Below the pieces are notes generated by a model. The model ran no database searches, had not been told where the DNA came from, and worked only from the letters and a program-made list of their open reading frames with translations. Below, piece by piece: positions 10,898 to 42,974 of a stretch of 48,644 nt of DNA. Source of the stretch: a virus; the IMG/VR virus record IMGVR_UViG_3300030117_005760, positions 1-48,644 of that record; one strand, given 5' to 3'. The position numbers and the translations under genes are program-made. Position 1 is the stretch's first letter; each line of letters opens with the position of its first letter.

Positions 10898-11085
10898 TTA
10901 GTAGACTTTTTCTTGCGAGTTGCTTTTTTCTTCTTGGGTGTTGGGGCAGGAACAGGTGTTTCAACAACCTTTCCGAAATCCGGTCCAAACCCAAATTTGG
11001 CAAGCATTTTTCTTCCGTAAGCAGAACTGCATTTTTCGTATCCACCGGGAACTGCAAATTTTTTATATTCATTTGGAAGTTTCAT
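10894..11085 (-). CDS. 63-residue protein with Lys-rich tail (copy A of a pair)
   Basis: MKLPNEYKKFAVPGGYEKC opens a small domain of about 40 residues, followed by a Pro linker (VPAPTP) and a basic tail. I chose the ATG at 11085, which overlaps the upstream stop as ATGA, rather than a TTG at 11094. The KKFAVPGGYEKCSSAYGRK portion is compact and may be folded. Function unknown; basic tail as in the neighbour. Confidence 0.62.
   Translation of the reverse strand: MKLPNEYKKFAVPGGYEKCSSAYGRKMLAKFGFGPDFGKVVETPVPAPTPKKKKATRKKKSTK
10896..10933. repeat. 38-bp direct repeat, copy 2
   Basis: Partner of 10765-10802 (one mismatch), coding for the basic tail of the upstream paralogue. Confidence 0.85.
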
Positions 11086-13393: not shown

Positions 13394-14371
13394 TTATCCT
13401 CTAGGTGGTGGTGCTTCACCACCGACTGGTGGTTCCTCTGGTCGCTGTGGAGGTGGTGGATTTTCGGGTGGTTGTAAAATTTGTTTTCCAAAAAATTTCA
13501 AAATGTTTGGAGGAATTCCGTCAGGCACATCATCCCCAAGAACATAAATTCTTCTCAGTCCTTGTAACATACCTTCATACCCTTCTGGTGCTGTCCATTC
13601 ATAACCAGTTGAATTATACAAAGAGCGATATATGGAGGCGACTCCAAAATCACCGTTGGGACCACCAAATCCTGCTTCCAAATCCCCATCACCATTGTAG
13701 TCGTAACGTCTGAGCATTTCTAAAGCAAACTCAGCACCAAACAGTGCTGCTAAACCGCGAACACCATCGAGATCGCCAAACCAAATAAAAAGAGAGTTGA
13801 GGAGATAATTAATCCAACTGCCCGATGACGATATTTCTTGTTCGTAATCAACTGGATTTGCTCCGTATGGATATGCAAAATCTGAGTCCGGGATTTCAAC
13901 ATATTCTCCATTGAACAGAACCAGATTGAAACCGTTTGGATCAGGTAGATCAAGACCATATTGTTCATTAAGATCCTGCCACATCTCTCGATAAATTGCA
14001 GGTGTCATTATAGGTGGGAATCCTTCAAAAGAGTCATTTTCAATCATATAATCAAATATGGTTCTTCCAACAATATGGGCAAGAGTAACATCATTTGCAC
14101 CAATAATTCCATCACCATTAAAATCCATTGCATCAATCATAACTTGAGGTGCGTTGACCAGTGGAAATTCACCACCTAATAAACCATTTGAACTTGTATC
14201 AACGCTCTGATTATCAGCGGTAAGCGTAGCAAACCCAAAGCCACCCCACGCATAATAATACCAAGTCGCAGAGTCAGCCGACTCTTGTTCATATCCCATT
14301 AATGCTTGCAACAAATCAAGATCACCCGGACCTTGGTACTCTTCTTTTAAAAATCGTTTGAAACTTTTCAT
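13394..14371 (-). CDS. Tagged EF-hand/dockerin-like protein, member D
   Basis: 325 residues, tag MKSFKRFLKEEYQGPGD (LKE). The core is MIDAMDFNGDGIIGANDVT with M-W-Q-D-L-N-E-Q-Y-G and LPDPNGFN, and a second loop RRYDYNGDGDLEAG lies around residue 225. It ends in a Pro-rich tail (PPENPPPPQRPEEPP). The gene is immediately downstream of the 14372 gene with no gap and has a GAGAGG site. It is a paralogue of members A, B, C, E and F, and no enzymatic motif is seen. Confidence 0.8.
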   Translation of the reverse strand: MKSFKRFLKEEYQGPGDLDLLQALMGYEQESADSATWYYYAWGGFGFATLTADNQSVDTSSNGLLGGEFPLVNAPQVMIDAMDFNGDGIIGANDVTLAHIVGRTIFDYMIENDSFEGFPPIMTPAIYREMWQDLNEQYGLDLPDPNGFNLVLFNGEYVEIPDSDFAYPYGANPVDYEQEISSSGSWINYLLNSLFIWFGDLDGVRGLAALFGAEFALEMLRRYDYNGDGDLEAGFGGPNGDFGVASIYRSLYNSTGYEWTAPEGYEGMLQGLRRIYVLGDDVPDGIPPNILKFFGKQILQPPENPPPPQRPEEPPVGGEAPPPRG

Positions 14372-15493: not shown

Positions 15494-15711
15494 GGTTTTA
15501 CCTCGTCTACGATTTCGTACTTTTGTCTTTCAAGTTTGCGAATCTCATTTCGATTTTCTGCATACTTGTAGTCACCATTTCTAATGTGTTGCATAATGAA
15601 GATTGTTTTTTTAAGTTCGTCTGCCATTTTCTCTGCGTCACGAACAACATCTTTGAATTGACCGATAGCCTCTTGCATTTGTCGTTCTTCCTCTTCGTTC
15701 AACCAAAACAT
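15490..15711 (-). CDS. 73-residue coiled-coil protein
   Basis: Almost entirely charged helix (EEEERQMQEAIGQF and RNEIRKLERQKYEIV), so a coiled coil or adaptor is likely. It overlaps the PAP2 gene and the 14372 gene by one to four bases and is thus translated with them. No family recognised. Confidence 0.65.
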   Translation of the reverse strand: MFWLNEEEERQMQEAIGQFKDVVRDAEKMADELKKTIFIMQHIRNGDYKYAENRNEIRKLERQKYEIVDEVKP

Positions 15712-16400
15712 TAGTATGCCTCCTTACCATATACGGGTGCAGGTAGATCACCATATCGATATTTTTTCTTTGGTTTTACAAGTTCTTCCTCTGGTTGGTA
15801 TTTATTTAATAATTGTTCTGCGAGTTCTCTACCCGCTTCAACATCACTCATAAAGTGAACACCCAACTCGACTCTTGAAATCGCATTATCATTTGCAACT
15901 TTATCAAGTTCTTTCTTATGCTCTGGATATTTTCTTGATAAAATACCTGCGATTGTATAACCAACTGCCGTGTGGTTGCTTGGATAACTTGGAGTGTCAA
16001 CTTTAACGTGGGGAGTCAAAGTCTTTCCGTAAAATTCAGCAGTTTCAAGGGGTCTAAGACGATTGAACGAATATTTCATATTTAAGGTGGTTGTGTCAAT
16101 TTGTCTTTTAATCTCTTCGATCAAATCGATTTCTCCACCGACGATCTCCGACATCATTTTCATATAGTTAACATCTAAATCTTTCAGATACTTAAGTTTT
16201 TCATCTGACATAATCATCGCATCTTGAACATCTTTTAGTTCCATTTGTGTGGTTCTGGATGTGAGTTTTGGTGGTGACTCTATTTTTATATTTTTTGCAT
16301 CAGGAAACAATGGAGTGGGTCGCTTCATCATAATTCTATGTTTTTGTGATGCTGCTTCGTTTAGAATTTTCTGATTGATAAAGTTATTAAAACGGATCAT
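15711..16400 (-). CDS. Tagged PAP2/vanadium-haloperoxidase-type phosphatase
   Basis: 229 residues. All three PAP2 motifs are present: K-x6-RP (KYSFNRLRP, Lys109, Arg116), PSxH (YPSNHTAVG, Ser141, His143) and SR-x5-H-x3-D (SRVELGVHFMSD, Arg176, His182, Asp186). This family hydrolyses phosphate monoesters or lipid phosphates, and some members are haloperoxidases. No signal peptide or TM segment is visible, so it resembles the soluble class. Instead the N-terminus MIRFNNFINQKILNEA is a virion-type tag with LNE-A, a perfect T4 prohead-protease site pattern. I infer delivery in the capsid. The start overlaps the 16397 gene by ATGA. Confidence 0.82.
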   Translation of the reverse strand: MIRFNNFINQKILNEAASQKHRIMMKRPTPLFPDAKNIKIESPPKLTSRTTQMELKDVQDAMIMSDEKLKYLKDLDVNYMKMMSEIVGGEIDLIEEIKRQIDTTTLNMKYSFNRLRPLETAEFYGKTLTPHVKVDTPSYPSNHTAVGYTIAGILSRKYPEHKKELDKVANDNAISRVELGVHFMSDVEAGRELAEQLLNKYQPEEELVKPKKKYRYGDLPAPVYGKEAY

Positions 16401-23450: not shown

Positions 23451-23523
23451 TAGGATCGCCGGGACTCGAACCCGGACTGGATGGATTTTAAGTCCACTGC
23501 CTCTACCATTGGGCTACGATCCC
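23451..23523 (-). tRNA. tRNA with UAA anticodon (Leu, codon UUA), short variable loop
   Basis: 73-base cloverleaf: acceptor 5' GGGATCG with 3' CGATCCT (G1-U72), T8 A9, anticodon stem GTGGA/TCCAT with loop CTTAAAA (anticodon UAA), T arm CCGGG-TTCGAGT-CCCGG, discriminator A. No CCA is encoded. The variable region is only 5 bases, whereas leucine tRNAs normally carry a long variable arm, so the charging identity is uncertain. Confidence 0.88.
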
Positions 23524-23540
23524 TTTGCCCTCCGAAGGAA

Positions 23541-23613
23541 TGATCTCGGTGAGACTTGAACTCACGACTCTCGGATTAAAAGTCCGGTACTCTACCAACT
23601 GAGTTACGAGATC
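23541..23613 (-). tRNA. tRNA-Lys(UUU)
   Basis: Acceptor GATCTCG/CGAGATC, anticodon stem CCGGA/TCCGA with loop CTTTTAA (anticodon UUU), T loop TTCAAGT, discriminator A, no encoded CCA. Middle member of a three-tRNA cluster. Confidence 0.93.
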
Positions 23614-23619
23614 CTTCAA

Positions 23620-23693
23620 CAGTCGCGGCAGGACTCGAACCTGCAATCTACGGATTAGAAGTCCGTTGCATTATCCAATTATGCTACGCGACC
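23620..23693 (-). tRNA. tRNA-Arg(UCU)
   Basis: Acceptor GGTCGCG/CGCGACT (G1-U72), anticodon stem ACGGA/TCCGT with loop CTTCTAA (anticodon UCU), T arm GCAGG-TTCGAGT-CCTGC, discriminator G, no encoded CCA. First of the cluster in transcription order. Confidence 0.93.
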
Positions 23694-23698
23694 AGATT

Positions 23699-23845
23699 TC
23701 ACCAACGTAACTTTTTACCATTACCGGATCGAGAAGTTTTGCTTCTTCCGCTAATCTTCCAAGCCTTCTTCTTACCGGGTCTTCGTGGTTTACCAATTGA
23801 AGTGATACCGCTTTTCAATCCTGTTGCGAGTGCTGCTCGTCCCAT
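23699..23845 (-). CDS. 48-residue basic microprotein
   Basis: MGRAALATGLKSGITSIGKP followed by an Arg/Lys/Gly/Ser-rich tail (RRPGKKKAWKISGRSK). It has a strong GGAGG site. Its stop is 5 bases from the tRNA-Arg gene, so it is probably cotranscribed with the tRNAs. Likely a nucleic-acid-binding peptide; no family recognised. Confidence 0.6.
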   Translation of the reverse strand: MGRAALATGLKSGITSIGKPRRPGKKKAWKISGRSKTSRSGNGKKLRW

Positions 23846-23846
23846 A

Positions 23847-24167
23847 TCAATCCTCCGTCAAAAGTTGTGAACCAATGACACCAGCGACTTCACCTGTGGT
23901 TGGAATCTCAACGCCAGTAACCATTCGGGTGTATTCGTTTTCCAATTCAGTAGCGGGCGTGGTAATAAACATAATTTTTTCTGTTGGAACCACTACCCCT
24001 TCTTCTTGAATGTTTGAATACGGACACCAAGGCATCAGAGCAATACCTTTACCTTGTGTCGGAATAATCAAATGAGGCTTATTAAATTTTGTTGCCTCAC
24101 CAATATTTTCAATCTTTGCGAGGACTTCTTCGCCGCTCACCAGTCTTACGATTTGAACCTGATCCAT
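23847..24167 (-). CDS. Conserved small beta-barrel-like phage protein (SGEEVLA type)
   Basis: 106 residues from the ATG at 24167. MDQVQIVRLVSGEEVLAKIE then KPHLIIPTQGKGIALMPWCP resembles a small Sm-like/SH3-like protein that I recall from many T4-like phages, with no assigned role. The second half (EKIMFITTPATELENEY) also fits that family. A longer frame to 24197 overlaps the next gene and lacks a ribosome site. Confidence 0.72.
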   Translation of the reverse strand: MDQVQIVRLVSGEEVLAKIENIGEATKFNKPHLIIPTQGKGIALMPWCPYSNIQEEGVVVPTEKIMFITTPATELENEYTRMVTGVEIPTTGEVAGVIGSQLLTED

Positions 24168-24261
24168 TCTTGTTTCCTTTCTTCTTGCCGAATGCAAGAT
24201 CCCAATTTGATTCCCATTTCTTTTGATTCACGGGACGATAACTATCACCTTTTCCTGCCAT
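24109..24261 (-). CDS. Small MAGKGD-type conserved phage protein
   Basis: 50 residues. MAGKGDSYRPVNQKKWESNW then DLAFG is a widely seen phage and bacterial small-protein signature (GKGDxxRPVxxxxWxxNWDxxFG) without known function; the rest is basic (RKTGERRRSPRKD). It overlaps the next gene by 59 bases, more than usual here. The start at 24261 follows GGAGAC. Confidence 0.65.
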   Translation of the reverse strand: MAGKGDSYRPVNQKKWESNWDLAFGKKKGNKNGSGSNRKTGERRRSPRKD

Positions 24262-24288
24262 ATTAAATTGTCTCCTCTCGGAAAGACA

Positions 24289-24314
24289 AAGCCACACCGT
24301 TTCCAGTGTGGCTT
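24289..24314 (-). terminator. Hairpin terminator between HTH gene and MAGKGD gene
   Basis: Nine-base-pair perfect stem (24314-24306 with 24297-24289), 8-base loop, followed on the reverse strand by TGTCTTTCC. The weak T run makes partial read-through likely. Confidence 0.55.
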
Positions 24315-24400
24315 GCCTGTGTCAAACAAACTTCTTACATTCCACAACCTGCCTAGTGGATGTCCGAAGACGTTTGGAAGTGTTGACACTTTACCTTACA

Positions 24401-24664
24401 TTATGCGAGGGCATTTTCAACTTGGTCAACATCGACCAGTGGGTTAGCGAGAACAACACGCTTCATAGCGTATCGTTGACCGTTGCCGTTCTTCAACGCG
24501 GAAGACATCATACGCCAGTTACCGTAGTTCTCCACGATGCCACGAACGCGGGACATAGTAGCCGACACGTTGGAGATTCCAAACTGTCGTTGGATTTGCG
24601 AAGTGGTGAGATCCTTGCCCGTACCAAGGAAAGCGATAATTTGACGGGTCTTGCTGTTATTCAT
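24401..24664 (-). CDS. Small winged-helix/HTH protein
   Basis: 87 residues. TSQIQRQFGISNVSATMSRV gives a helix-turn-helix with recognition helix in a position typical of wHTH phage regulators, and NGNGQRYAMKRVVL supplies the wing. It has its own consensus promoter (24745-24772) 80 bases upstream and a hairpin after it, so it is an independent unit, probably an early regulator. The partner operator is not known. Confidence 0.75.
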   Translation of the reverse strand: MNNSKTRQIIAFLGTGKDLTTSQIQRQFGISNVSATMSRVRGIVENYGNWRMMSSALKNGNGQRYAMKRVVLANPLVDVDQVENALA

Positions 24665-24744
24665 AACAAACTCCTAAAGTAACGGCAGGTTCAAGTGAGA
24701 AGGAAGAGGACTCTGCCGCCAGCCGTCTTCCCGTTGATGAATTC

Positions 24745-24772
24745 ATTGTAGTGCTTGTTGATGTTCTGTCAA
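24745..24772 (-). promoter_or_regulatory. Sigma70-type promoter for the HTH gene
   Basis: Reverse strand TTGACA (24772-24767), 16-base spacer, TACAAT (24750-24745). Full -35 match and one mismatch in -10; the HTH gene starts 80 bases on, with an AGGAG site. Confidence 0.82.
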
Positions 24773-24776
24773 CCCC

Positions 24777-24802
24777 AAAACAAGAATCCGGAAAAGATTC
24801 TT
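24777..24802 (-). terminator. Hairpin terminator after the 24810 gene
   Basis: Seven-base-pair stem AAGAATC/GATTCTT (24802-24796 with 24788-24782), then GTTTT on the reverse strand. The short T run makes it weak to moderate; it separates two transcription units. Confidence 0.6.
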
Positions 24803-24809
24803 TTCAGGG

Positions 24810-25388
24810 TTAAATTCTAAACCAACGCGGTGTTTTTTTGAGATAGGCAACTTCGTTGAAACCAAGAATCTCACGCTCTTCGAGAATAAATTCTTCGGTT
24901 TGAAAAAGAAACTTTTTGCCTCTTTGTGAACCTTTTACCAAAGATGAAAAGAAATCTTTGATTGCATCTTTCGCAAGAGTAATCGAGTCTCTCGGACTAC
25001 CACCTCTAAAGTCCATCAAAACTTTACCACGACCAGTTGCAACATTTGTGCCAAGAAGTGTAAAAGATTCTTTATCTTTATAAATTACAGAATCTTGATC
25101 GTAGTCGTTTCCGAGCCTGATGATTTCTTTCTTATCGACACCGGGAATGAAGAGAGACAACTCGTTTACAAAGCCGCCATCTTCTTCTTTGTAGCCTCCA
25201 CGCATTTCAATAAATCCGTAGCCCATTTTTCTAATTTTATCTTTTAATTCTGAATGTCTTTCCATATTTTCTTGTTTGGAAAGACCACCCCGAAACGCAG
25301 AGATGACTCCGAAGGAACGGTCGCCCTCAACGTGCGATAGAATTCTTGATAGACTGGACTCGTTTAAATCTTTTCTAGGTATTTTCAT
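24810..25388 (-). CDS. Conserved protein of unclear function (SRILSHVEGDRSFG type)
   Basis: 192 residues from the ATG at 25388. ESSLSRILSHVEGDRSFGVI then RGGLSKQENMERHSELKDKI and GYGFIEMRGGYKEEDG look like a conserved globular family seen in phages and bacteria; I cannot name it. The second half carries ELSLFIPGVDKKEIIRLG and an FLF/FQTEEF end. It is monocistronic between a tRNA and a terminator. The longer frame to 25448 runs into the tRNA gene and was rejected. Confidence 0.72.
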   Translation of the reverse strand: MKIPRKDLNESSLSRILSHVEGDRSFGVISAFRGGLSKQENMERHSELKDKIRKMGYGFIEMRGGYKEEDGGFVNELSLFIPGVDKKEIIRLGNDYDQDSVIYKDKESFTLLGTNVATGRGKVLMDFRGGSPRDSITLAKDAIKDFFSSLVKGSQRGKKFLFQTEEFILEEREILGFNEVAYLKKTPRWFRI

Positions 25389-25402
25389 AGTTTCACCAAA
25401 TG

Positions 25403-25410
25403 TATTTATG
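25403..25410 (-). promoter_or_regulatory. Possible late promoter box (CATAAATA)
   Basis: One-base variant of the T4 late box, between the tRNA-Thr gene and the ATG at 25388 (14 bases away). Plausible because no other promoter is seen for this gene. Confidence 0.4.
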
Positions 25411-25412
25411 AA

Positions 25413-25484
25413 AGCCAACGACTGGATTTGAACCAGCAACCTGTTCATTACAAGTGAACTGCACTACCGTTGTGCTACGTTGGC
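25413..25484 (-). tRNA. tRNA-Thr(UGU)
   Basis: Acceptor GCCAACG/CGTTGGC, anticodon stem GTTCA/TGAAC with loop CTTGTAA (anticodon UGU), T arm GCTGG-TTCAAAT-CCAGT (final pair G-T), 72 bases, no encoded CCA. It stands apart from the three-tRNA cluster. Confidence 0.92.
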
Positions 25485-29953: not shown

Positions 29954-30097
29954 TTAGATAGAACCTAACATTGGGTCGGAGAGAAGATCGAAGTCGGGAT
30001 CCTCTTCCGGAACAGAGATGAGTGTGATATCGAAATCGAGCAATTCGTCGTCGTTTTGCACAATTTCAAGATTTTCATTCAAATGGGCAGTCAACAC
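29954..30097 (-). CDS. 47-residue acidic microprotein (GTG start)
   Basis: Reads MLTAHLNENLEIVQNDDELL then DFDITLISVPEEDPDFD and ends LLSDPMLGSI. The GTG at 30097 lies inside the end of cobS with AGGAG seven bases upstream. The alternative frame from an ATG at the cobS stop gives a Ser/Cys/Thr-rich sequence without protein character. Strongly acidic, function unknown. Confidence 0.55.
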   Translation of the reverse strand: MLTAHLNENLEIVQNDDELLDFDITLISVPEEDPDFDLLSDPMLGSI

Positions 30098-31292
30098 CAG
30101 AAGTCTCCTGTGTTTCTTGGGTTTCGGGGTTGGCAACCTCGCCAGAGATTTTCTCAAACAACTTGAGGAAGTCGGCTTTGGTTTGCTCGTCGAAGCGAGA
30201 GATGCCCATCTCGACAGCCTTATGTTCCTTGCCGAAGATGGCGAACGCCTTGAGGATCGACTCCAGACGGCGGGTGGTGATGATATCAGTGCTTGCACCG
30301 ACATCGTAGGACTTGCGAATGTTGGAAGCCCAAGTTACCAGCGATTGAATGTAGTCCTTGACAGACTCAGCATCCAGACCAAACTTGGAAGCCTTTTTGC
30401 TGAGAATGTCCTTCTCTTTGGCTTCGGTGGCGTAAGGTTGCTCAAGCGTCACGGGGAAGCGGTCGAGCATCGCTTCGTTCATAATGCCCGTATGAGCGAA
30501 CGAACCAGTTTCGTCGCCTTTGCCCTTGGTGTTGGCGGTGGCGACCACGGTGAATCCCGGAGCAGGCTTGACCCATTCGCCGGTCTTCTTGACGTAGATC
30601 GCGTTGCCTTCCAGAAGAGGCTGGAGACACATAAGAGCAGGACCGCCAAGGTCGATTTCGTCGAGAAGAAGAATCGCACCTTCTTTGGCAGCGAGAACGG
30701 CAGCACCATCGACCCAGACGGTATCGCCATTGACCAGACGGAAACCGCCGATCAAATCGGATTCGTCAGTTTGTCGCGTGATGTTGACACGGAAGCAAGT
30801 TCGCTTCGCATTCGCGGCGGCTTGCAAAATCATTGTGGTTTTTCCGTTGCCGGAAAGACCAGTGACATAGACGGGGTAAAACTCGCCGGAGCGGAGGATA
30901 CGCTCAACGTCCGAGTGATGACCCCATTTGACATATTCAGCCATTTTGTCGGGAATGATGCGAGACTCAGCACCAGCCATCTGCATCACGGTAGCCGCAG
31001 GAGCGGGAGCCGGAGCAGGAGCGGGAGCGGGAGTCGGATCGTTGGCTCCACCTTTCAAGCCGATGACCGATGGGGGAGCCGGAAGCGGTTTGGTTCCGTT
31101 GACAAACGAAGAAATGTCCCATTGACCACGGGACACTTTAAAATCGCAAGAATTTGCTCGGAACCACAAAGGAATGCAAGATCGACCAGTTTCGGCAGCG
31201 ACCGCATCACAGGCGGCAACGTCGAAACGGGTGGAACCAGTTGCAGAAAGGGCTTCAAGCCACTCGCGTCGGGATTTGTTAAGTTTGCTCAT
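30075..31292 (-). CDS. cobS: CobS-like (MoxR-type) AAA+ ATPase
   Basis: 405 residues. A small N-terminal domain (about 1-70) is followed by a Pro/Ala linker (PAPAPAPAPAPA, about 88-99) and an AAA+ module: Walker A GLSGNGKTT (143-151), Walker B ILLLDEID (about 205-212), VVATANTKG sensor 1 and RFPVTLEQ arginine region. CobS with CobT forms the cobaltochelatase ATPase in B12 synthesis, but phage copies lack CobN and probably drive another remodelling task with the adjacent VWA protein. Transcribed divergently from cobT. The -10 box is 8 bases before the ATG. Confidence 0.88.
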   Translation of the reverse strand: MSKLNKSRREWLEALSATGSTRFDVAACDAVAAETGRSCIPLWFRANSCDFKVSRGQWDISSFVNGTKPLPAPPSVIGLKGGANDPTPAPAPAPAPAPAATVMQMAGAESRIIPDKMAEYVKWGHHSDVERILRSGEFYPVYVTGLSGNGKTTMILQAAANAKRTCFRVNITRQTDESDLIGGFRLVNGDTVWVDGAAVLAAKEGAILLLDEIDLGGPALMCLQPLLEGNAIYVKKTGEWVKPAPGFTVVATANTKGKGDETGSFAHTGIMNEAMLDRFPVTLEQPYATEAKEKDILSKKASKFGLDAESVKDYIQSLVTWASNIRKSYDVGASTDIITTRRLESILKAFAIFGKEHKAVEMGISRFDEQTKADFLKLFEKISGEVANPETQETQETSGVDCPFE

Positions 31293-31300
31293 ACCCCAAG

Positions 31301-31329
31301 AGTGTAACCGAAAGCCCGCCAGCCTTCAA
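31301..31329 (-). promoter_or_regulatory. cobS promoter, -10 box 8 bases before ATG
   Basis: Reverse strand TTGAAG (31329-31324), 17-base spacer, TACACT (31306-31301), eight bases, ATG at 31292. No clear ribosome site, so the mRNA is probably nearly leaderless. Confidence 0.55.
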
Positions 31330-31346
31330 GCCTCTTTCTCAAGAAA

Positions 31347-31365
31347 ACTGACAGATCGTGTCAGT
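31347..31365. promoter_or_regulatory. Operator-like dyad on the cobS side
   Basis: Perfect 7-5-7 palindrome ACTGACA-GATCG-TGTCAGT, centred at 31356, 55 bases before the cobS start. A near-identical dyad sits at 31613-31631 on the cobT side. Likely sites for one regulator. Confidence 0.65.
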
Positions 31366-31409
31366 GGCGGAAAAAATGCACGAAAACGTTCATTTGTCGC
31401 ATTTCCAAC

Positions 31410-31555
31410 CAAAAACGGGAGCCGTGTCGCAAAATACAAGTTTTATAGCAATTTTCCGTCAAAACCTCCTTTTTTGCCTCTGAAAGCCATTTTAACTGCT
31501 GGTTGTCGGAAATCAAGCCTAAAATGCTCGATTTGCGACACGGCTCCCGTTTTTG
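31410..31555. repeat. 24-bp perfect inverted repeat in cobS-cobT gap
   Basis: Arms 31410-31433 and 31532-31555 are exact reverse complements (core ACGGGAGCCGTGTCGCAAA) separated by 98 bases. The whole 391-base gap 31293-31683 holds no gene; besides this repeat it carries two dyads, two promoters and repeated TTTTGCGTCA-like words at 31558-31600. Confidence 0.85.
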
Positions 31556-31612
31556 TGTCATTTTGCGTCATTTTTGCACTTTTTTATGCTTTTTTGCGTC
31601 AAAACGGTCGAA

Positions 31613-31631
31613 ACTGACACATTTTGACAGT
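31613..31631. promoter_or_regulatory. Operator-like dyad on the cobT side
   Basis: ACTGACA-CATTT-TGACAGT, same 7-5-7 layout as the dyad at 31347-31365 with one mismatch in the arms, flanked by AA/TT. It ends 52 bases before the cobT start. Confidence 0.6.
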
Positions 31632-31648
31632 TTTCTAGGCTAAAGGCA

Positions 31649-31677
31649 TAGACGGTGGCACAGTTTTCGCATACAAT
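31649..31677 (+). promoter_or_regulatory. cobT promoter, -10 box 6 bases before GTG
   Basis: TAGACG (31649-31654, four of six to consensus), 17-base spacer, TACAAT (31672-31677), then six bases and the GTG at 31684. Transcription should start at or next to the start codon. Confidence 0.6.
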
Positions 31678-31683
31678 CTAGGC

Positions 31684-33837
31684 GTGAGTAATGCCCTTCC
31701 TACCGTTTCCTCTGGTTTTGCCAAACTTCTTGCCACCGAAGACATTAGCGTTAACATTGATTCAACCGCACCAACCGCGTCCTTTGACGTTGAGTCGCGT
31801 GTTCTGACGATGCCCGTCTGGGAGAAGATGTCCGAGCAACTTACTGATATGCTCTTGGGTCACGAAGTGTCCCACGCTTTGCATACAACTGACGATAACT
31901 TGCTGGCTACCATTCGCAAGTTGTCTCAAGACGCTGGCGTGCCTTTGGCAATCGCAATGGGTGGTCTGAACATTGTCGAAGATGTTCGGATCGACCGCTT
32001 GATCCAGCGACGTTATCCCGGTTTGCGTAATGACTACGCTGCTGGCTATCCCGAAATGCGGGAAATGAACCTGTTTGAAATTGATCCGGACGAAAACCTC
32101 GACGAGCGTTCGTTCCTTGACCGCCTCAACCTTCACGCCAAAGCCTACAATGGCGAGATCGCTTTCTCCGCCGAAGAGCAAGTCTTGGTGAATCGTGCTG
32201 AGAACACCGAGACTTACGAAGAAGTTTTGGAATTGACCACCGAAATTTTGAAATTGGTGGCTGAACATCACAAACAAAACCAAGAAAAGCAAACCGTCTC
32301 TGAGGGTGAAGCCGACGAATCAAACGAAGGTATGCCCAGCGACGAGACTGGCGAGCAAACCGGCGAAAACGGAACCGAGTCCGAAGGCGAAGAGTCCAAA
32401 GACGGTGAGGGTGTTGAAACCAAGGGTGACGGCACGATGGAATCCGCCAAAGAAGCCGAAGACGATGGCTCCGAAGCCGAGAGCGAAGAAGGCGAAGCGG
32501 AACCCAGCGACGGCGGCGGCTCTGAGGCTGACGGTCAAGGCTGGGATGAGCAAATGCCAGCATCGGCTGATGCTCTTTCCAAGTCGCTGCGAGATATGGC
32601 GATGAACGAAAACATCGAGAGCCACTATGAAAGCCCAACGCACTCCACCATCACCGCTCCCAAGGCACTGACTCAGTACGCTGTTCAAACTCTCGAAGAG
32701 TCACGCCGGTTGCTCACGCAAGGTATTACTGCGTTCACCTTGGACCGAGCCGCCAGCACCATCGGTGACTTGCGAGCCACTGCGACGATGATGGCAACGG
32801 CGTTTGAGCGTAAGCAAGCCGCCCACGTTGACCAACGAACCCAAATCGCCAAGTCCGGTGATCTGGATCTCGATCAACTTCACAACTACAAATTGACTGA
32901 CGATTTGTTTCTTCGCAACGAAGTTCGTCCCAATGGCAAGAATCACGCCATCACGGTGGTCATCGACTGGTCGGCTTCAATGCGTGGCAAATGCACTTCC
33001 ACGGTGCGTCAAGCCGCCACCTTCGCTATGTTCTGCCAAAAGGTCGGCGTTCCTTGCGAGGTCTTCGTCTTCCAGTCCGGCGGCGGCATTGAGTTTGAAT
33101 GCTTTGAACCCGGCAGCGATATCAAGGGTGGATGCCGAAACCTCAAGGTTCTCGACACTCGCGTTCGTCGCAATCTCTTTATGATGGATGTCCAGCGAAT
33201 GTTGGCTCTGGGAGCCTGCACCGATGGTGGTTATGTCACTGGCTTCCGCCTTGGTTGCACTCCTTTGGGTCAATCGGTCGCCATCACCAAGTTCACCCAC
33301 GGTCAATTGATGCGTGAGACTCAAGCCGAGATCGGTTCGATCATCTTCCTTACTGATGGTGAGGGTGATTCGGGTGTCCAGTATTCTAAGGCTGGCAAGG
33401 AAACCACCACTATCGTTGACCCCCACACCCGTCGCACGATTGTCTCCGGTGGACGGTATGGTTGCCAAACCATCTTCGACTGGGTTCGTGCCGAGACTGG
33501 TGCAAAAATCATCAATTTCTTTATGGTCAACAAGAAGGAAGGCAAGCGAGTTCTCGAATATCGTAACGAATGGGATCACCGTGACGCTGCTCTCAAGACT
33601 TGGAAGGATGAGTCTTGGGGACAGATCGGTGACGATTGGGCAAAGCGTGATGGTTGGGATGCTGGCTTCGTTGTCTACGACAAGGCGGCTGATGACTCCG
33701 AGCAGGAGGATGCGATGGCTGGCTTGGATGACGATGCGAGCAAGGTCAAGGTTCGTAATGCGTTCATCAAGGATATGCAGAGCAAGGTCGCGGCTCGTCC
33801 GTTGGTGGAGCGAATCACCGAGATGATCGCCTGCTAA
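31684..33837 (+). CDS. cobT: CobT-like protein: HExxH metallopeptidase-like head plus VWA domain
   Basis: 717 residues from a GTG. LLGHEVSHALHT (His60-Glu61-x-x-His64) is a zinc-peptidase motif, and NIVEDVRIDRLIQRRYPG, with Glu99, supplies a likely third ligand. Residues about 200-300 are a very acidic Glu/Ser/Gly linker. The C-terminal VWA domain (about 420-650) has the MIDAS signature VVIDWSASM (DxSxS) and IIFLTDGEGDS. CobT-like VWA proteins work with MoxR/CobS ATPases, which are encoded divergently next door. I infer a pair that remodels or cleaves a target protein, rather than a metal chelatase. Possible leaderless mRNA. Confidence 0.86.
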   Translation: MSNALPTVSSGFAKLLATEDISVNIDSTAPTASFDVESRVLTMPVWEKMSEQLTDMLLGHEVSHALHTTDDNLLATIRKLSQDAGVPLAIAMGGLNIVEDVRIDRLIQRRYPGLRNDYAAGYPEMREMNLFEIDPDENLDERSFLDRLNLHAKAYNGEIAFSAEEQVLVNRAENTETYEEVLELTTEILKLVAEHHKQNQEKQTVSEGEADESNEGMPSDETGEQTGENGTESEGEESKDGEGVETKGDGTMESAKEAEDDGSEAESEEGEAEPSDGGGSEADGQGWDEQMPASADALSKSLRDMAMNENIESHYESPTHSTITAPKALTQYAVQTLEESRRLLTQGITAFTLDRAASTIGDLRATATMMATAFERKQAAHVDQRTQIAKSGDLDLDQLHNYKLTDDLFLRNEVRPNGKNHAITVVIDWSASMRGKCTSTVRQAATFAMFCQKVGVPCEVFVFQSGGGIEFECFEPGSDIKGGCRNLKVLDTRVRRNLFMMDVQRMLALGACTDGGYVTGFRLGCTPLGQSVAITKFTHGQLMRETQAEIGSIIFLTDGEGDSGVQYSKAGKETTTIVDPHTRRTIVSGGRYGCQTIFDWVRAETGAKIINFFMVNKKEGKRVLEYRNEWDHRDAALKTWKDESWGQIGDDWAKRDGWDAGFVVYDKAADDSEQEDAMAGLDDDASKVKVRNAFIKDMQSKVAARPLVERITEMIAC

Positions 33838-34794: not shown

Positions 34795-36006
34795 ATGAAG
34801 ATTGATCCACGTTTAAACGAAGAAATTTTTAATCCTGACGATCCACTCAATCCACTTGGAATGCCCGGAGTACCTAATAATCCGGAGAATCCACTCTTTC
34901 CGCCGGACACTCCTACGTTGCCCACACCAGATGGTCCTCCATTTAAACTCCCACCTCCAGTACCCGGAATGCCAAACCCTTGGAATCCAGATGGTGTGCC
35001 TGATGATGTTCCAGACGTTCCTAAAGGCACTCCGGGATTTATTCCAGATGATTTTCCTGATGGATTGCCGGACAACTTTCCCGATCGTGGAACTCAAGGA
35101 CACTGGTGGTGGCGTTGGATAAGTCAGTGGAAAAAATACTATGAAGACTTGATTAATTTGATTACTAGTAAAATAAGTGATCTTCAAAATGAGTTGATAG
35201 AAATTCAAGAACTGATTGCTGATATGGAAGATGGCGGGGTAGGCAACGATGATCCACAAATGAGAAGAGCGAGGGCTACCTATAATAGAATACGCGCACA
35301 AATTGCTTTTCTACAACAACAATTAGCAGATGTAAATCGGCAATTGCGATTAATCTTAGCAGAACTCGCCGAGTTCTGGAGTACGATTAAAAGAGGCGTT
35401 CCCACTACTTGGAAAAAGATCAAAAGAACAATCAAAAGATGGTTTGAAAGACGTAGAAGAAGTAGAAGGAAACCTCCCTTCCCACCAAGAAGAAGAGGTC
35501 CGCCCGGATCTGCATCTGTAGATGAAATTTGGGACAGCCTTTTTGATACAGATTTTTCTGGTTCAATGTCATACACGGGTCTTCAATGGGCTGTTATCAT
35601 TGAGGCTATGTTCCTTGATGGTGTTGTTGGTGGTGGTTATACATCAGGTGATCAAAGCGATTATGCTATTTTTCAAAATATGATTGATGGTGTGTATGAA
35701 TTCTTTACAGAATTCAATGATCCAAATCAAACATACTCATACGATGATTTTATTGCAATCCTTGATGGATGGATCGCAGATGGAGAGCAATACAATAATC
35801 CCTTCTCACCACCAGATGAGCCGCAAGGTTTAGAGGGTCCACAACAAGGTAAAGAATTAAATATCAAAGTTTCTTCTACCCCCACAACACCCACAATTAC
35901 GCCATCAGCACCCCCGATGGGTGGACAAGGAGCAAGTCCAGAAGGTGAGTTTGCCAAGGCATTTGCTCGCTACAACAAGGGTATTCAAGGAAAAGGTATT
36001 CGATGA
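34795..36006 (+). CDS. Tagged Pro-rich virion-type protein with basic core
   Basis: 403 residues. I chose the ATG at 34795, after AAGGAAG, which gives the tag MKIDPRLNEEIF (LNE). Then comes a long Pro/Asn/Asp-rich region (about 12-100), a Trp-rich WWWRWISQWKK, a coiled-coil segment (SKISDLQNELIEIQELIADM), a strongly basic stretch RRRRSRRKPPFPPRRRG and a C-terminal EF-like region (DTDFSGSMSYTGLQ). The basic core suits contact with packaged DNA. The frame start at 34723 was rejected. Confidence 0.72.
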   Translation: MKIDPRLNEEIFNPDDPLNPLGMPGVPNNPENPLFPPDTPTLPTPDGPPFKLPPPVPGMPNPWNPDGVPDDVPDVPKGTPGFIPDDFPDGLPDNFPDRGTQGHWWWRWISQWKKYYEDLINLITSKISDLQNELIEIQELIADMEDGGVGNDDPQMRRARATYNRIRAQIAFLQQQLADVNRQLRLILAELAEFWSTIKRGVPTTWKKIKRTIKRWFERRRRSRRKPPFPPRRRGPPGSASVDEIWDSLFDTDFSGSMSYTGLQWAVIIEAMFLDGVVGGGYTSGDQSDYAIFQNMIDGVYEFFTEFNDPNQTYSYDDFIAILDGWIADGEQYNNPFSPPDEPQGLEGPQQGKELNIKVSSTPTTPTITPSAPPMGGQGASPEGEFAKAFARYNKGIQGKGIR

Positions 36007-36710
36007 GACTCAATAAGAGAGACATTTTTGAGGGCTGCTCCTCTTGTAATGACGAGAGAATCAATGAACTCCTTCAAAGGTTGAAAGAGGAAGTATCTTG
36101 GGATCCAGATTTTTTTCCGGGCTTGTTTGACCGCAGCGATCAAGACTCTGATGGTGACGGTTATCCAGATTGGGTAGAAAATCTAAAAGGAACCGATCCT
36201 AACGATCCTAATTCAACACCCTTTGAATTTGAAGATTGGGATGATTGGTTAGAATGGTATGAAAGTCAGAATCCAATACTTCAAATTATTCTGCAAATAC
36301 TTATCGCTGAACTCGGATGGCGTGTGGTTTTACTTTTCATCCCCGGTGGTGGAATCGCACTAGCGGCTGGAGGATTTTGGTCTTTCGTTAGAAAACTAGT
36401 TATACTTTTTGAAATATACGAGGGCGCACAATTATTGCAAATGATCTCAGAATTGGTGCTAGAATTCTTTGGACTTGAAAGTAATGTAATTGATTTGATT
36501 GATTGTCTTCTTAGTGGTGGGACAAATTGCTTTGACGCATACAAACCAGAGGACTTTGATATAACACAAAACCCTCTTGATCAAAAACAATTCCCTGATG
36601 TGGCTCCATCCAGACCAAAACCTGTAATTACACCTCTACCAAATCTACCAGATGATCTTCCCCCTCCCACACAACCATTTGGTCCCGGTGGAAATAATCC
36701 AATCCCGTAA
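36003..36710 (+). CDS. Tag-like protein with thrombospondin-type calcium repeat and hydrophobic core
   Basis: 235 residues. MRLNKRDIFEGCSSCNDERI is a variant of the tag with an added CSSC. SDQDSDGDGYPDWVENLKGT followed by DPNDPN is a TSP3-like calcium repeat. A long hydrophobic region (about 96-170: LQIILQILIAELGW, VVLLFIPGGGIALAAGGFW) looks like two membrane-inserting helices, and a Pro-rich tail ends the protein. It overlaps the previous gene by ATGA. Could be a membrane-active cargo protein; this is inference. Confidence 0.68.
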   Translation: MRLNKRDIFEGCSSCNDERINELLQRLKEEVSWDPDFFPGLFDRSDQDSDGDGYPDWVENLKGTDPNDPNSTPFEFEDWDDWLEWYESQNPILQIILQILIAELGWRVVLLFIPGGGIALAAGGFWSFVRKLVILFEIYEGAQLLQMISELVLEFFGLESNVIDLIDCLLSGGTNCFDAYKPEDFDITQNPLDQKQFPDVAPSRPKPVITPLPNLPDDLPPPTQPFGPGGNNPIP

Positions 36711-36719
36711 GGAAAGAAG

Positions 36720-36758
36720 ATGAGACTTGATCCACGACTAAGAAAGGAAATTCGATGA
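36720..36758 (+). CDS. 12-codon mini-ORF encoding an isolated tag peptide
   Basis: Reads MRLDPRLRKEIR and stops at the ATGA start of the lysozyme gene. Its first 20 bases are identical to the start of the tagged gene at 37882 (MRLDPRLDEEL). An AAGGAAAGAAG ribosome site precedes it. It is either a relic of a deleted tagged gene or a translated leader coupling into the next gene. Confidence 0.5.
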   Translation: MRLDPRLRKEIR

Positions 36759-37885
36759 AAATTAATCAACGTTTTGATGAAGAAGTAGGGGGTGATATTC
36801 CATTCACCCCTCCACAGAACCCATTGGATGTCACTCCGCAGGGTGTTCCCGAATTCACTCCGGATGAAGTGGGACCAAACACGATTGATCCACGATTGTT
36901 GTATACCGATCAAGCACAAGGTTTTCTCGGTATCAATCCAGATGACTTTCCCGGTTGGGCTGGTGGAACAATCACTTTAGAAAACTTTGAAGAATTTATT
37001 CAATATCTTATTGGACAAGGATTTGGTCACACAAGAGCAGATCACCCTGATAACTTAACTATTGAAGAAATCTATGCGGCAGTTCAAGCGATGTTGGGTA
37101 ACTACGAAAATTGGAATGATTTTTCAATTACACAAATGATTATGTTTCTTTATTATATTGGGGGACCGGAGGGGTTTAGCGGAACAGTCTACCTCGATAG
37201 TAGGGGTAATCCAACAATTGGATATGGTTTTACACGAAATGCCGAAGGTCTACAAGAAGCATTGGATTATATCAATGCAACATACGGAACCAACTACACG
37301 ATTGATGGATTGTTCGGTGGTTCACAGACATTGACGAGAGCGCACGCAGGAATCATTCTTTCTCTTATCTCGGTGAAATATTTTAGTATTGTAAATAAAG
37401 GTCTTGCGAAACTTGGCTTTACAATGGACAGTCGTGGACTGAATATGATTTTTCAAATTTTATTCAGTCTTGTGTATCAAGGCGGTGCAGGATTCTTTGA
37501 TAAATTCCCAAAAATGATAAAAGCCTTACTTGAGGGTCGTTTTATGGACGCTTGGTTACAACTCATTTATGTGAATGGAACTCCTGCAAGTGGGACTACA
37601 GATTGGTATGAACAAACGCGAGCAAACTCCCCTCGATTCCAAATGATTTACCAACTTTTCTATTGGCTTTTCATATTCTATGGAATCACACCAGATGGAC
37701 CCGGAGTGGGACAACGCCCACCAATTCCGGGTGGCGAACAAGTTGTAAGAACAACACCAGACTTTGTGGGTGATGATGATCCCGGATTAGATCCTGATTT
37801 GTTTGCGAATTTAGGTGAATCTAATAATCCTTTGATTGAATCATTTAAACATTTTAATAATATTTCACATAAGGGACTGAGATGA
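36755..37885 (+). CDS. Tagged GH24 (T4-type) lysozyme
   Basis: 376 residues. The tag MKINQRFDEEVGG is followed by a Pro-rich segment with a second tag-like NTIDPRLLY. The lysozyme core begins near residue 125: E139-GFSGTVYL-D148-SRGNP-T154-IGYG reproduces the E-x8-D-x5-T catalytic triad of T4 lysozyme, with the FTRNAEGL and LGFTMDSRGLN regions after it. The last 70 residues are Pro/Gly/Asp-rich. A second peptidoglycan hydrolase besides the 25548 gene, and with a tag, it may act at DNA entry or within the virion rather than at lysis. The ribosome site AAGGAAA lies inside the mini-ORF. Confidence 0.8.
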   Translation: MKINQRFDEEVGGDIPFTPPQNPLDVTPQGVPEFTPDEVGPNTIDPRLLYTDQAQGFLGINPDDFPGWAGGTITLENFEEFIQYLIGQGFGHTRADHPDNLTIEEIYAAVQAMLGNYENWNDFSITQMIMFLYYIGGPEGFSGTVYLDSRGNPTIGYGFTRNAEGLQEALDYINATYGTNYTIDGLFGGSQTLTRAHAGIILSLISVKYFSIVNKGLAKLGFTMDSRGLNMIFQILFSLVYQGGAGFFDKFPKMIKALLEGRFMDAWLQLIYVNGTPASGTTDWYEQTRANSPRFQMIYQLFYWLFIFYGITPDGPGVGQRPPIPGGEQVVRTTPDFVGDDDPGLDPDLFANLGESNNPLIESFKHFNNISHKGLR

Positions 37886-38361
37886 GACTTGATCCACGAC
37901 TTGATGAGGAGTTGGGTCCGGGTTTCACTCCCGCACCAAGTAACGTGCAGATCAATACAGGATCTTTTAGCGGTATTGCAGGTGCGGCGGATGATGTTGT
38001 CACATCCGGTGAAAAATCTGCAAAAGTCAAAGTGGTTCGTGATAAAAATACCGGAAAGTTAACTCTTCAATCAGTCGTGACGGTCTATGCAGGACCGGAT
38101 CGTGGTTTTGTTGAAGTCGATGACGATGATGAAAGATTGTTTTACAATCGCAGAGTCGCAAGGCAATCAGTCCAACAAAATATGGACGTTGCTCGTTTCC
38201 TTGCACAGAATGGTATGGGTCAGTCGGATGCAATGCGTCTTGCCCAACGTGGTGCAGAGGATGGAAATGAGATTGCCAATGGTCGGCGTGCCACTTCCTT
38301 CTACGGTAATGGTGGCAACTCTTCAATGATTAATCAAAGAAACTCACGAGACTTCTATTGA
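37882..38361 (+). CDS. Tagged virion-type protein, unknown function
   Basis: 159 residues with the clearest second-class tag, MRLDPRLDEELGPG (LDE). The central part (KVKVVRDKNTGKLTLQSVVT) is beta-like and the end is Asn/Ser-rich (GNGGNSSMINQRNSRDFY). Overlaps upstream by ATGA and downstream by TGATG. No known domain. Confidence 0.72.
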   Translation: MRLDPRLDEELGPGFTPAPSNVQINTGSFSGIAGAADDVVTSGEKSAKVKVVRDKNTGKLTLQSVVTVYAGPDRGFVEVDDDDERLFYNRRVARQSVQQNMDVARFLAQNGMGQSDAMRLAQRGAEDGNEIANGRRATSFYGNGGNSSMINQRNSRDFY

Positions 38362-39287
38362 TGAAAAGTTTCAAGCGTTTTTTAAGTGAAGAAGATCAAG
38401 GACCGAATGAGTGGGAAAAGTGGAGATTGATGTTAAGTAAAGCCTATTTTAGCGAATCGGGCAATATCGACAATGAAGGATTTTTAGGGAGATTTAGAAT
38501 GACAACCGGAGTTCGCTCACTTGGTTCTCCCTATGTGACACAGACTATGCTCGATCACTTTGACTTCAACGGTGATGGAATCATTGGTCAAAATGATATC
38601 GCCTATGGTCAAATTATTTCAACTGCAATCTTTTATTATGGTATAGAAAATGGAGTTGATAATGTTCCTCCGTTTATGATCGCGTCTGAGTGGAGAGAGA
38701 ATTGGGAGTCAATCAATGAACAGTACGGATTTGATTTCCCAAATCCAGATGGATTCTTTGGCATTCCTGATGTTCCAGATGGTAATTACCCGGATACTTG
38801 GGATCCAGATGATGCTGTTCGTTTAAGTGTTGATTTTTTACCCGCTGTCGTTGATGGCTGGACTAATATTTCAGGCACAATTAGTAACACAGCAACTTTT
38901 GCTGATTTGTATCCAGAAATGTTCGCAGAATTATTACAAATGTACGATTTTAATGGCAACGGAAAAATTGATGGTGGATTTCCTCCAAATCCAAACAACT
39001 ATAACGTAGATTCCTATCTTGCATATTTTATATTTGAGATTCTAGCAGCAAGGGGATTTGATACATCACAACAACTACCCGAATCTCTTTATGGTGCAGG
39101 AGGATTCGCAAATCTTGTTCAAACCTACTTCTACACAAGAGGAGATATGAGTGATACATTGAGTGTTATCCTTCAACGAATTATTGACTCAGGCTATGTG
39201 ATTCCAGAACTTCCTGCTCCACCACCCCCACCACCAGAAGAAATTCCTCAATCACAAGCACCGCCACCTGAGATTGGTATGGCATAA
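38361..39287 (+). CDS. Tagged EF-hand/dockerin-like protein, member E
   Basis: 308 residues, tag MKSFKRFLSEEDQGPNE (LSE). Core MLDHFDFNGDGIIGQNDIA, W-R-E-N-W-E-S-I-N-E-Q-Y-G, and a second loop MYDFNGNGKIDGGF near residue 195. Pro-rich tail (PPPPPPEE). It is the right-hand-cluster copy of the family seen at 4147-14371 on the other strand, 24 kb away, showing that copies moved between clusters. Confidence 0.8.
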   Translation: MKSFKRFLSEEDQGPNEWEKWRLMLSKAYFSESGNIDNEGFLGRFRMTTGVRSLGSPYVTQTMLDHFDFNGDGIIGQNDIAYGQIISTAIFYYGIENGVDNVPPFMIASEWRENWESINEQYGFDFPNPDGFFGIPDVPDGNYPDTWDPDDAVRLSVDFLPAVVDGWTNISGTISNTATFADLYPEMFAELLQMYDFNGNGKIDGGFPPNPNNYNVDSYLAYFIFEILAARGFDTSQQLPESLYGAGGFANLVQTYFYTRGDMSDTLSVILQRIIDSGYVIPELPAPPPPPPEEIPQSQAPPPEIGMA

Positions 39288-41611: not shown

Positions 41612-41935
41612 ATGCAATTAGGTGGTGTGGCAAGTTCAGTGGTTATTGGTTTTTTAGGTGGTAGTTTGATTCGGCTGTTTACAGGTCCGTTGATCGAATT
41701 ACCAAACTTCTCAGAAGTTGAGGTCAAACCTACACAAAGAGTAATCTTCGTTCCCAAGAGAACAGAAGATGGCAGTATTCAGTATGTGTTGTCGCGTGTT
41801 GAGGATGCGAATAAACCGTTTGTCCCATCGGGTGATTTTTCGATGACACCAGAAGAGTGGGAAGTTTTAGTTAGGCAACTCAATCAACTCAAGAACGCCG
41901 ATACCTCAGACGTAGATTTAGCAACGTCAAGATAA
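41612..41935 (+). CDS. Small TM-anchored protein
   Basis: 107 residues with AGGAG upstream. N-terminal TM-like segment (VASSVVIGFLGGSLIRLF), then a small domain (TQRVIFVPKRTEDGSIQYVL, MTPEEWEVLVRQLNQL). The 3' end overlaps the leftward 41889 gene tail to tail by 47 bases. Unknown function. Confidence 0.62.
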   Translation: MQLGGVASSVVIGFLGGSLIRLFTGPLIELPNFSEVEVKPTQRVIFVPKRTEDGSIQYVLSRVEDANKPFVPSGDFSMTPEEWEVLVRQLNQLKNADTSDVDLATSR

Positions 41936-42974
41936 AGAAAATACTCAGCATTCCCGGTTCCGGAATTGGAACACCTGCTAATGGTGGTATGTATGGATCA
42001 ATCGGTGATGCCGGAATGTCGATGGGTTCAACTGTTTCTTCGACAAATTGTTCCACATCATCAACTTCAACAGGTGGGGTTGGGTCGTTTGTTTCGTAAT
42101 CACCAACAATCACCTCACCAGCATCGGGCTGACGAGAGTTGAGGATTGCGGGAAGATTTTCAAGAAGGTCGGGTGTGTCTTGAATAATTGTATCAATTGC
42201 CTCCAATTCTCCAAGTGCAAAATCTTTTTCAAAAAAATCAAGAAGATTGGTTTCATCGGTGGGTTCGGGGATGCTTGGAATGCTTGCTGATTGATCTTCT
42301 GAGGGTGGATCTGGTTCCGGCTGCTCCTGTTCTTCCTCTTGCTGCTCCTCTTCCTCTTGCTGCTCCTCCTCTTCCTCTTCTTCTTCCTCTTCTTCTTCCT
42401 CTTCCTCAGACTCTTCTTCTTCCTCTTCGTCCTCAGACTCCTCTTCTTCCTCTTCTTCGGCTTCCTCTTCTTTATCTTTATCTTTTTCGCCCTCTTCGTC
42501 CTCGTCCTTAGAATCCTCTTCGTCCTCAGTGGACGGGGTGGCTTTCTCAGCGTTCTGAGAGCCAACACCGGATCCCGACCCTCCCAGACCGCCAAAGCCG
42601 CCACCGAAGCCTCCTAGCCCCGGAAAGACGATTTCACCATTGGGTCCGACCTGCATACCCATCGCAGCAGGATCAAGACCGATGCCGGAAGCAGCCTCGC
42701 TAATGGCTTCGGTATCACCAGATACGACACCATCAATAACACCAACAATCTGACCGATCTCATTGACGGCTTCTTGACCGACCAATGCACCGCCAGCGGA
42801 AGCAGCAATTGTTAATCTTGAAAGTTTCTTTTCATTTCTTCGATGACGTTCTTCACATTCTTGTAAAAGATCAATGGCACTTTTGAATTGTTTTGTTTCA
42901 CATTCACGCAGTTGTTCCAACAGCGATTTAGGATCCAAGAGATCCTTTAAAGCATCATCATCGTTTTTTGACAT
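41889..42974 (-). CDS. Glu-rich protein with PEP-CTERM-like tail
   Basis: 361 residues. The N-terminus is charged, without a signal peptide; a helix with Ala/Gly (LTIAASAGGALVGQ) and a Gly-rich run (FGGGFGGLGGSGSG) follow, then about 70 residues of nearly pure Glu/Ser/Lys/Gln. The C-terminus VPIPEPGMLSIFFILTLLNL plus RLRYRRS has the P-E-P, TM helix and Arg cluster order of a PEP-CTERM signal. Without an export signal the tail may only anchor it, or the signal may be cryptic. Opposite to its neighbours and convergent with the 41612 gene. Confidence 0.68.
   Translation of the reverse strand: MSKNDDDALKDLLDPKSLLEQLRECETKQFKSAIDLLQECEERHRRNEKKLSRLTIAASAGGALVGQEAVNEIGQIVGVIDGVVSGDTEAISEAASGIGLDPAAMGMQVGPNGEIVFPGLGGFGGGFGGLGGSGSGVGSQNAEKATPSTEDEEDSKDEDEEGEKDKDKEEEAEEEEEEESEDEEEEEESEEEEEEEEEEEEEEEQQEEEEQQEEEQEQPEPDPPSEDQSASIPSIPEPTDETNLLDFFEKDFALGELEAIDTIIQDTPDLLENLPAILNSRQPDAGEVIVGDYETNDPTPPVEVDDVEQFVEETVEPIDIPASPIDPYIPPLAGVPIPEPGMLSIFFILTLLNLRLRYRRS

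Follow-up and report, generated by a model that had tools for sequence, protein, structure and literature searches.

The varied internal proteins of T4-related phages follow a common signal for capsid targeting, and how unrelated genes come to share that signal is rarely visible. Work by Mullaney and Black from 1996 is said to concern the capsid targeting sequences (CTS) of T4 internal proteins, and Repoila et al. reportedly described, in 1994, polymorphic internal-protein loci of T-even phages with different cargo behind a shared signal. Another familiar arrangement is the translationally coupled leader ORF, a short ORF with a Shine-Dalgarno (SD) site whose stop codon overlaps the next start. 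In the available text of two accounts, the CTS of T4 is about ten residues long, ends in L/I-x-E and is cut by gp21 (PMC9026906, PMC3012670). According to the available text of a third, T4 makes duplications and deletions at homologies of 6-10 bp (PMC9391042).

Here, we describe a 12-codon ORF (the mini-ORF) from a T4-like phage fragment. It probably duplicates the beginning of the targeting tag of a nearby gene, most likely as a remnant of gene shuffling at repeated tags, and is unlikely to be a gene in its own right.

The phage and its relatives

The whole stretch of DNA analysed (the window) is a single IMG/VR virus record of 48,644 bases. Cyanophage and pelagiphage sequences match its CobT (31684-33837) and its CobS (30075-31292), with identities of about 27-50%, and a sister contig (G001), which overlaps the end of the window at 92% over 343 bp, carries a T4-type portal, protease, scaffold and major head protein. 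We therefore consider the window to be a fragment of a divergent marine T4-like phage. CobS and CobT (30075-33837) are divergently transcribed in the window and, in the same order, in the sister contig L088; in two annotated cyanophage/pelagiphage regions they run in one direction. The window also encodes a protein whose N-terminus matches a cytidyltransferase family and whose middle matches a ribosomal protein S6 glutaminyl transferase family (8252-10531, minus strand), a protein with a very long glutamate-rich stretch (41889-42974, minus strand) and four tRNA genes, Leu(taa), Lys(ttt), Arg(tct) and Thr(tgt) (23451-25484, minus strand).

No contig covering the mini-ORF site was found in searches of IMG/VR, genome contigs and isolate phages. 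In IMG/VR, the lysozyme scan gave four stretches, none of them related, and CobT alone gave a single, unrelated one; with a CobT alignment as query, the best 80 of 596 matches had best segments of 25-31% identity. CobS gave 14 loci there, the best at 67% on a contig that ends about 400 nt past CobT, and g34497 gave eight, none covering the site. The best 80 of 144 IMG/VR matches for g48330 included close sisters, none of which extends to the mini-ORF. The DNA pattern of the tag returned no stretch in one IMG/VR scan, two in another (both one unrelated protein) and none in genome contigs. Isolate phages yielded no match for the lysozyme, g34795 or g45208 (the last query began 3 nt before the ATG), and among related records the lysozyme was found in 0 of 13 and the tag pattern in 0 of 10.

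A short ORF in front of a tagged lysozyme gene

The mini-ORF reads ATG AGA CTT GAT CCA CGA CTA AGA AAG GAA ATT CGA TGA and bridges a 44-nt gap between two genes (Table 1). A preliminary description had credited it with a ribosome site and a stop on the ATGA of the next gene, and both are confirmed in the sequence: its SD (TAAGGA) overlaps the TAA stop of g36003 (36708-36710), with AAGG at positions -11 to -8, and its TGA overlaps the lysozyme ATG at 36755. This ATGA ending would be only mildly surprising, since all tags begin with ATGA and any frame that is open into a tag in the right phase stops there; the chance of that phase may be put at 1 in 3.

Table 1. Coordinates of the mini-ORF, its neighbours and the start-anchored repeats in the window.
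Feature	Position	Strand	Remarks
g34795	34795..36006	+	tag MKIDPRLNEEIF...; 403 aa; function of cargo unassigned
g36003	36003..36710	+	MRLNKRDIFEG...; possible degenerate tag; TSP3 repeat; gene before mini-ORF
SD site of mini-ORF (AAGGAA)	36709..36714	+	overlaps g36003 stop
Left copy of 22-nt exact direct repeat	36718..36739	+	
Mini-ORF	36720..36758	+	12 codons; peptide MRLDPRLRKEIR
SD site of lysozyme gene (AAGGAA)	36744..36749	+	inside mini-ORF, encodes its K-E
Tagged lysozyme-like gene	36755..37885	+	tag MKINQRFDEEVGG; lysozyme domain from about residue 138
In-frame internal tag core copy IDPRL in lysozyme	about 36884..36898	+	43 residues in
Right copy of 22-nt exact direct repeat	37880..37901	+	at g37882 start
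g37882	37882..38361	+	tag MRLDPRLDEELG...; 159 aa; function of cargo unassigned
Start-anchored repeats	13362/14343 (30 nt); 36718/37880 (22 nt); 43546/45204 (21 nt)		

The gene that follows is lysozyme-like, with matches to a PHROG endolysin (8.8e-6) and to an internal virion lysozyme motif (3.4e-4); it scores 20.2 bits with Pfam Phage_lysozyme, below the cut-off of 22.3, and E 0.042 against phage lysozymes of the PDB. Its tag is a diverged one of the same kind as that of the mini-ORF, and together the two starts form SD+tag units 35 bp apart. The internal IDPRL of the lysozyme looks as if an older start had been overlaid. For g37882, no Pfam family was matched. The same SD+tag unit stands in register at four starts, those of g34795, the mini-ORF, the lysozyme and g37882 (family D5), and AAGG occupies -11 to -8 at all four, versus 3 of the 65 other starts. 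Within this family, the SD spacer of the mini-ORF is closer to that of g34795 than to that of g37882, which counts against the origin from g37882 favoured below.

The preliminary description had the mini-ORF encode only a tag-like peptide, which holds for the core (MRLDPRL) and fails for the end. The [DN]EE that comes after the core in other tags is missing because, from the eighth codon on, the sequence is dictated by the SD of the lysozyme gene, and MRLDPRLRKEIR contains neither an LxE protease site nor cargo. This bears on a further suggestion of that description, a real peptide; in that case, the 12-mer would be made and would enter the prohead core via its tag as a spacer or competitor. 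Seven of the 12 residues do match the g37882 tag, and in the available text of one account it is the N-terminal part that T4 targeting relies on (PMC9026906). Nevertheless, a peptide with neither the LxE(E) site nor the acidic end, and with no clear second stand-alone counterpart in the fetched loci (five short rows, none convincing and judged to be chance), makes this reading extremely improbable.

Translation of the mini-ORF could have another use, as its stop might hand ribosomes to the lysozyme start by coupling, or set lysozyme dosage. In line with such a functional leader, the SD is good, with AAGG at -11 as in the other three tags of its type, the sequence is undecayed, the frame bridges the gap from the g36003 stop to the lysozyme start, and overlapping or touching stop-start junctions are common in this gene block. 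However, the lysozyme has an SD of its own, and the RNA round its start folds less than shuffled sequences in all three stretches examined (z +1.08, +1.43, +1.95), so that this SD needs no freeing. Moreover, in a mechanical listing of the window's gene starts, short stand-alone frames end at 3 of 68 starts (36755, 15331 and 24389), only the one at 36755 having an SD, and no second SD-bearing micro-ORF of the kind exists among them. The translational coupler proposed in the preliminary description is thus deprived of structural support, and we regard a functional leader as somewhat unlikely. At the start of g37882, by contrast, folding exceeds that of shuffles (z -2.21); the shared 22 nt therefore do not bring the same structure to both genes.

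A third way in which the mini-ORF might be translated is as part of the lysozyme itself, fused to it in a double tag by a -1 frameshift at AGA AAG or because one base is missing from the assembly. Upstream, the lysozyme frame indeed has no stop between the TGA at 36728 and the ATG, and the overlap contains A_AAG. Such a fusion is very improbable, however, as there is neither a full slippery heptamer nor a stimulatory structure and the lysozyme has its own SD and start.

A direct repeat brackets the lysozyme gene

The 20 bases already reported to be shared with the start of g37882 are confirmed and belong to an exact direct repeat of 22 nt, which starts 2 nt before each of the two ATGs, brackets the lysozyme gene and has a period of 1162 bp. 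An exact repeat is thus present at both edges of the presumed lysozyme insert. The chance that two independent encodings of the same peptide agree over 20 nt is about 0.001 with the codon usage of the window, and TTGATCCACG occurs four times in the window versus 0.16 expected. A frame with no relation to the tags, if open into an ATGA start in the matching phase, must also stop there. Yet the 20-mer at the start of the mini-ORF is found at two places only in the window (the mini-ORF and g37882), and the repeat starts at both ATGs. A chance origin is refuted for the tag part of the mini-ORF, and as an account of the whole ORF an unrelated short frame is barely conceivable.

When the outer flanks are joined, with the lysozyme removed, they read SD-ATG-MRLDPRLDEELGPGF... 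as a single open g37882 located 9 nt after the g36003 stop, with the junction sequence ...CCGTAAGGAAAGAAG-ATGAGACTTGATCCACGACT-TGATGAGGAG... Given that the lysozyme lies between the two copies and that joining the flanks gives back g37882, we read the mini-ORF as a stranded 5' end, either of g37882 or of a tagged gene since lost. Over 21 nt of tag, the mini-ORF agrees with g37882 at 20 positions and with the lysozyme's own tag at 14; a simple tandem duplication of the lysozyme's own start is disfavoured on this ground.

We tentatively favour a model, for which the case is nearly balanced, in which a lysozyme cassette was inserted at the tag of g37882. The cassette would have left one copy of the tag in front, now the mini-ORF, and one behind, now the g37882 start, the mini-ORF being the stranded SD, start codon and first seven codons of the present g37882. 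If the 22-nt copies recombined, the lysozyme would be lost and an exact g37882 regained. Translation of the mini-ORF would then probably be incidental and would at most keep ribosomes moving from g36003 to the lysozyme start. The proposal in the preliminary description of a recombination scar behind a conserved tag gains from the direct repeats around the lysozyme, from the tagged gene restored by the joined flanks and from the repeats and breakpoint at other genes described below; it is partly borne out and is the best supported of the readings. Several observations count against an insertion. The lysozyme resembles its neighbours in GC (0.401) and GC3 (0.297), so that signs of a recent foreign origin are lacking, and a recently foreign lysozyme is unsupported by composition. 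In addition, neither an empty nor an unchanged site was seen, since none of the contigs found covers the mini-ORF. Finally, the left junction needs a second, unexplained breakpoint because the lysozyme has its own SD and tag.

The stranded start could instead be the relic of a deletion, if a tagged gene between g36003 and the lysozyme lost its body and its first seven codons were joined to the lysozyme SD. The mini-ORF ends in KEIR* on ATGA, much as g34795 ends in KGIR* and the lysozyme in KGLR*, as expected of a gene start joined to a gene-end/SD junction, and deletions at short homologies are common in T4 in the available text of one account (PMC9391042). On the other hand, KEIR is partly forced, being the lysozyme SD read in that frame, the deletion requires an extra gene that nothing shows, and the match to g37882 would still call for an explanation. 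We consider this relic unlikely. The insertion model faces a further objection, since the decay of a relic should cost the SD and start, both of which the mini-ORF has kept.

The identity of the two copies is itself open to more than one reading. In another tag (MYFNPP), the first 17-18 nt are identical between the window phage and the sister contig L119. Tag DNA can therefore stay identical by constraint, so that the 22-nt identity need not mean recent copying and the retained SD and start may mean that the mini-ORF is used. In a quite improbable variant, the repeated tag, with its SD, start and seven to ten codons, would be an exchange module at which the genes of internal proteins come and go, and the mini-ORF an empty landing slot kept ready; if so, a single recombination step would exchange the injected cargo, keeping it in frame and behind a functional ribosome site.

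Repeats and breakpoints at other gene edges

We listed exact same-strand repeats of at least 17 nt in the window and dropped low-complexity pairs, which left 11. In three of them, the repeat is anchored 1-4 nt ahead of a start codon and its copies are on successive genes (Table 1). The preliminary description had suggested a search for tag-flanked breakpoints at other tagged genes; besides the pair at the lysozyme there are two other start-anchored repeats, and a stretch of homology between the window and L119 (41 bp at 85%) stops at an ATG, with different cargo on both sides. Beyond this breakpoint lies a tagged gene in L119 and an untagged one in the window. Here, two different genes (window 15709-15749, minus strand; L119:1883-1923) share only their last 26 residues (...DLPAPVYGKEAY), a shared end that also contains the SD of the next gene. 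Together, the start-anchored repeats and this breakpoint fit recombination at gene ends.

The 30-nt pair concerns g13390 and g14371, whose tags are identical over the repeat and whose proteins are 39% identical. A paralogous family with calcium-loop-like repeats, of which this pair are successive members, occupies 4147-5262, 12281-13390 and 13394-14371 on the minus strand and 38361-39287 on the plus strand, and its N-terminal tag is MKSFKRFLxEE or MKSFKKYLKEE.

Another of the 11 repeats, 35 nt long, is located at the ends of two consecutive genes, g7067 and g5262. The last 100 nt or so of these two genes (4147-4250 and 5262-5365, minus strand) are about 90% identical, the identity dropping to background upstream, which suggests that their C-terminal tails have been homogenised. 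In two small successive genes, the C-terminal ends (TRKK[NK]STK) likewise share an exact repeat of at least 20 nt (10776-10802 and 10907-10933, minus strand), a pair that the low-complexity filter had dropped from the list. An EDVQLDE-like motif, which fits the L-x-E protease site, occurs at least seven times in three proteins encoded between 40964 and 46611, one pair being identical over 27 nt.

Tags and capsid targeting

The proteins of g34795, the lysozyme gene and g37882 share a tag, with no blastp match among them at E 0.01. Their tags end in LNE, FDE and LDE, two of the three having the strict L/I. Among the loci compared, the core [ILVM][DN][PQ]R[LMF][DN]EE, or a near form of it, is found only in this window and in the sister contigs L118 and L119, L119 having the same kind of tag, MKLDPRENEDE, on a different cargo protein; a looser pattern added two further rows (L097 and L149), judged unrelated. 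Other window genes carry a second tag, MKSFKRFLxEE or similar. Among the window's starts, 10 of 69 have [LIMF]xEE within the first 14 residues, a number that none of 1000 shuffles reached (mean 0.62, maximum 5); the looser [LIMF]xE is present at 18 of 69 and was reached by 3 of the 1000 shuffles. CTS-like genes also follow CobT in three CobT loci (L012, L044 and L069), and further CTS-like starts lie near CobT in L012, L058 and L093.

A gp21-type prohead protease is absent from the window and present in the sister contig G001 (phrog_207, E 3.4e-81). In the window, the internal protein g7067 (5262-7067, minus strand) holds VIYEEANVAPVP..., a copy of the sequence round a site at which the major head protein of the sister contig may be cleaved (Z 16 in a shuffle test). 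A similar origin of g37882, as a copy of the cleavage region of the major head protein, is weak, its score being reached in 9 of 200 shuffles.

From motif and neighbourhood, the tags are probably capsid-targeting propeptides of the kind found on T4 internal proteins. They would put unrelated cargo into the prohead, after which a gp21-type protease would cut at LxE(E), and the repeated DNA of the tags could double as a place for gene recombination.

Comparison with known systems

The locus resembles the capsid targeting of T4 in several ways. A short N-terminal tag precedes different internal cargo and is followed by a hydrophobic-x-Glu site, a T4-type gp21 protease is encoded by the sister contig G001, and the MKSFKRFLxEE tags of the window have hydrophobic residues at 4, 7 and 8 and Glu at 10, positions that are important in the available text on T4 (PMC9026906). 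It differs in that the DPRL-type tags have their L-x-E one residue earlier and no aromatic residue at position 4, and in that packaging and cleavage of the window tags are predictions from sequence. The literature consulted, in the text available, mentions no cargo-less capsid targeting sequence, and one may yet be in print.

Compared with the short-homology events of T4, the direct repeats of the window (20-35 nt) are more than long enough, judging by the available text on those events (PMC9391042); they differ in being coding tags at gene starts, and the event that they point to would have to be read back from the present sequence. As for coupled leader ORFs, the mini-ORF shares with them an SD and a stop that overlaps the next start, whereas no structure hides the lysozyme SD and the mini-peptide is copied from the tag of another gene. 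Finally, the window differs from the internal-protein loci of T-even phages in belonging to a very distant lineage, in having several tag types per genome and in counting a lysozyme among the cargo.

The cargo-less tag and the repeat behind the next gene, together with the start-anchored repeats at two other pairs of successive genes, suggest that unrelated genes come to share a signal through recombination at the tag itself. The restored-gene junction is an exact DNA sequence and can be searched for in reads. Targeting tags on internal proteins and recombination at short homologies are both known, and this locus would combine the two.
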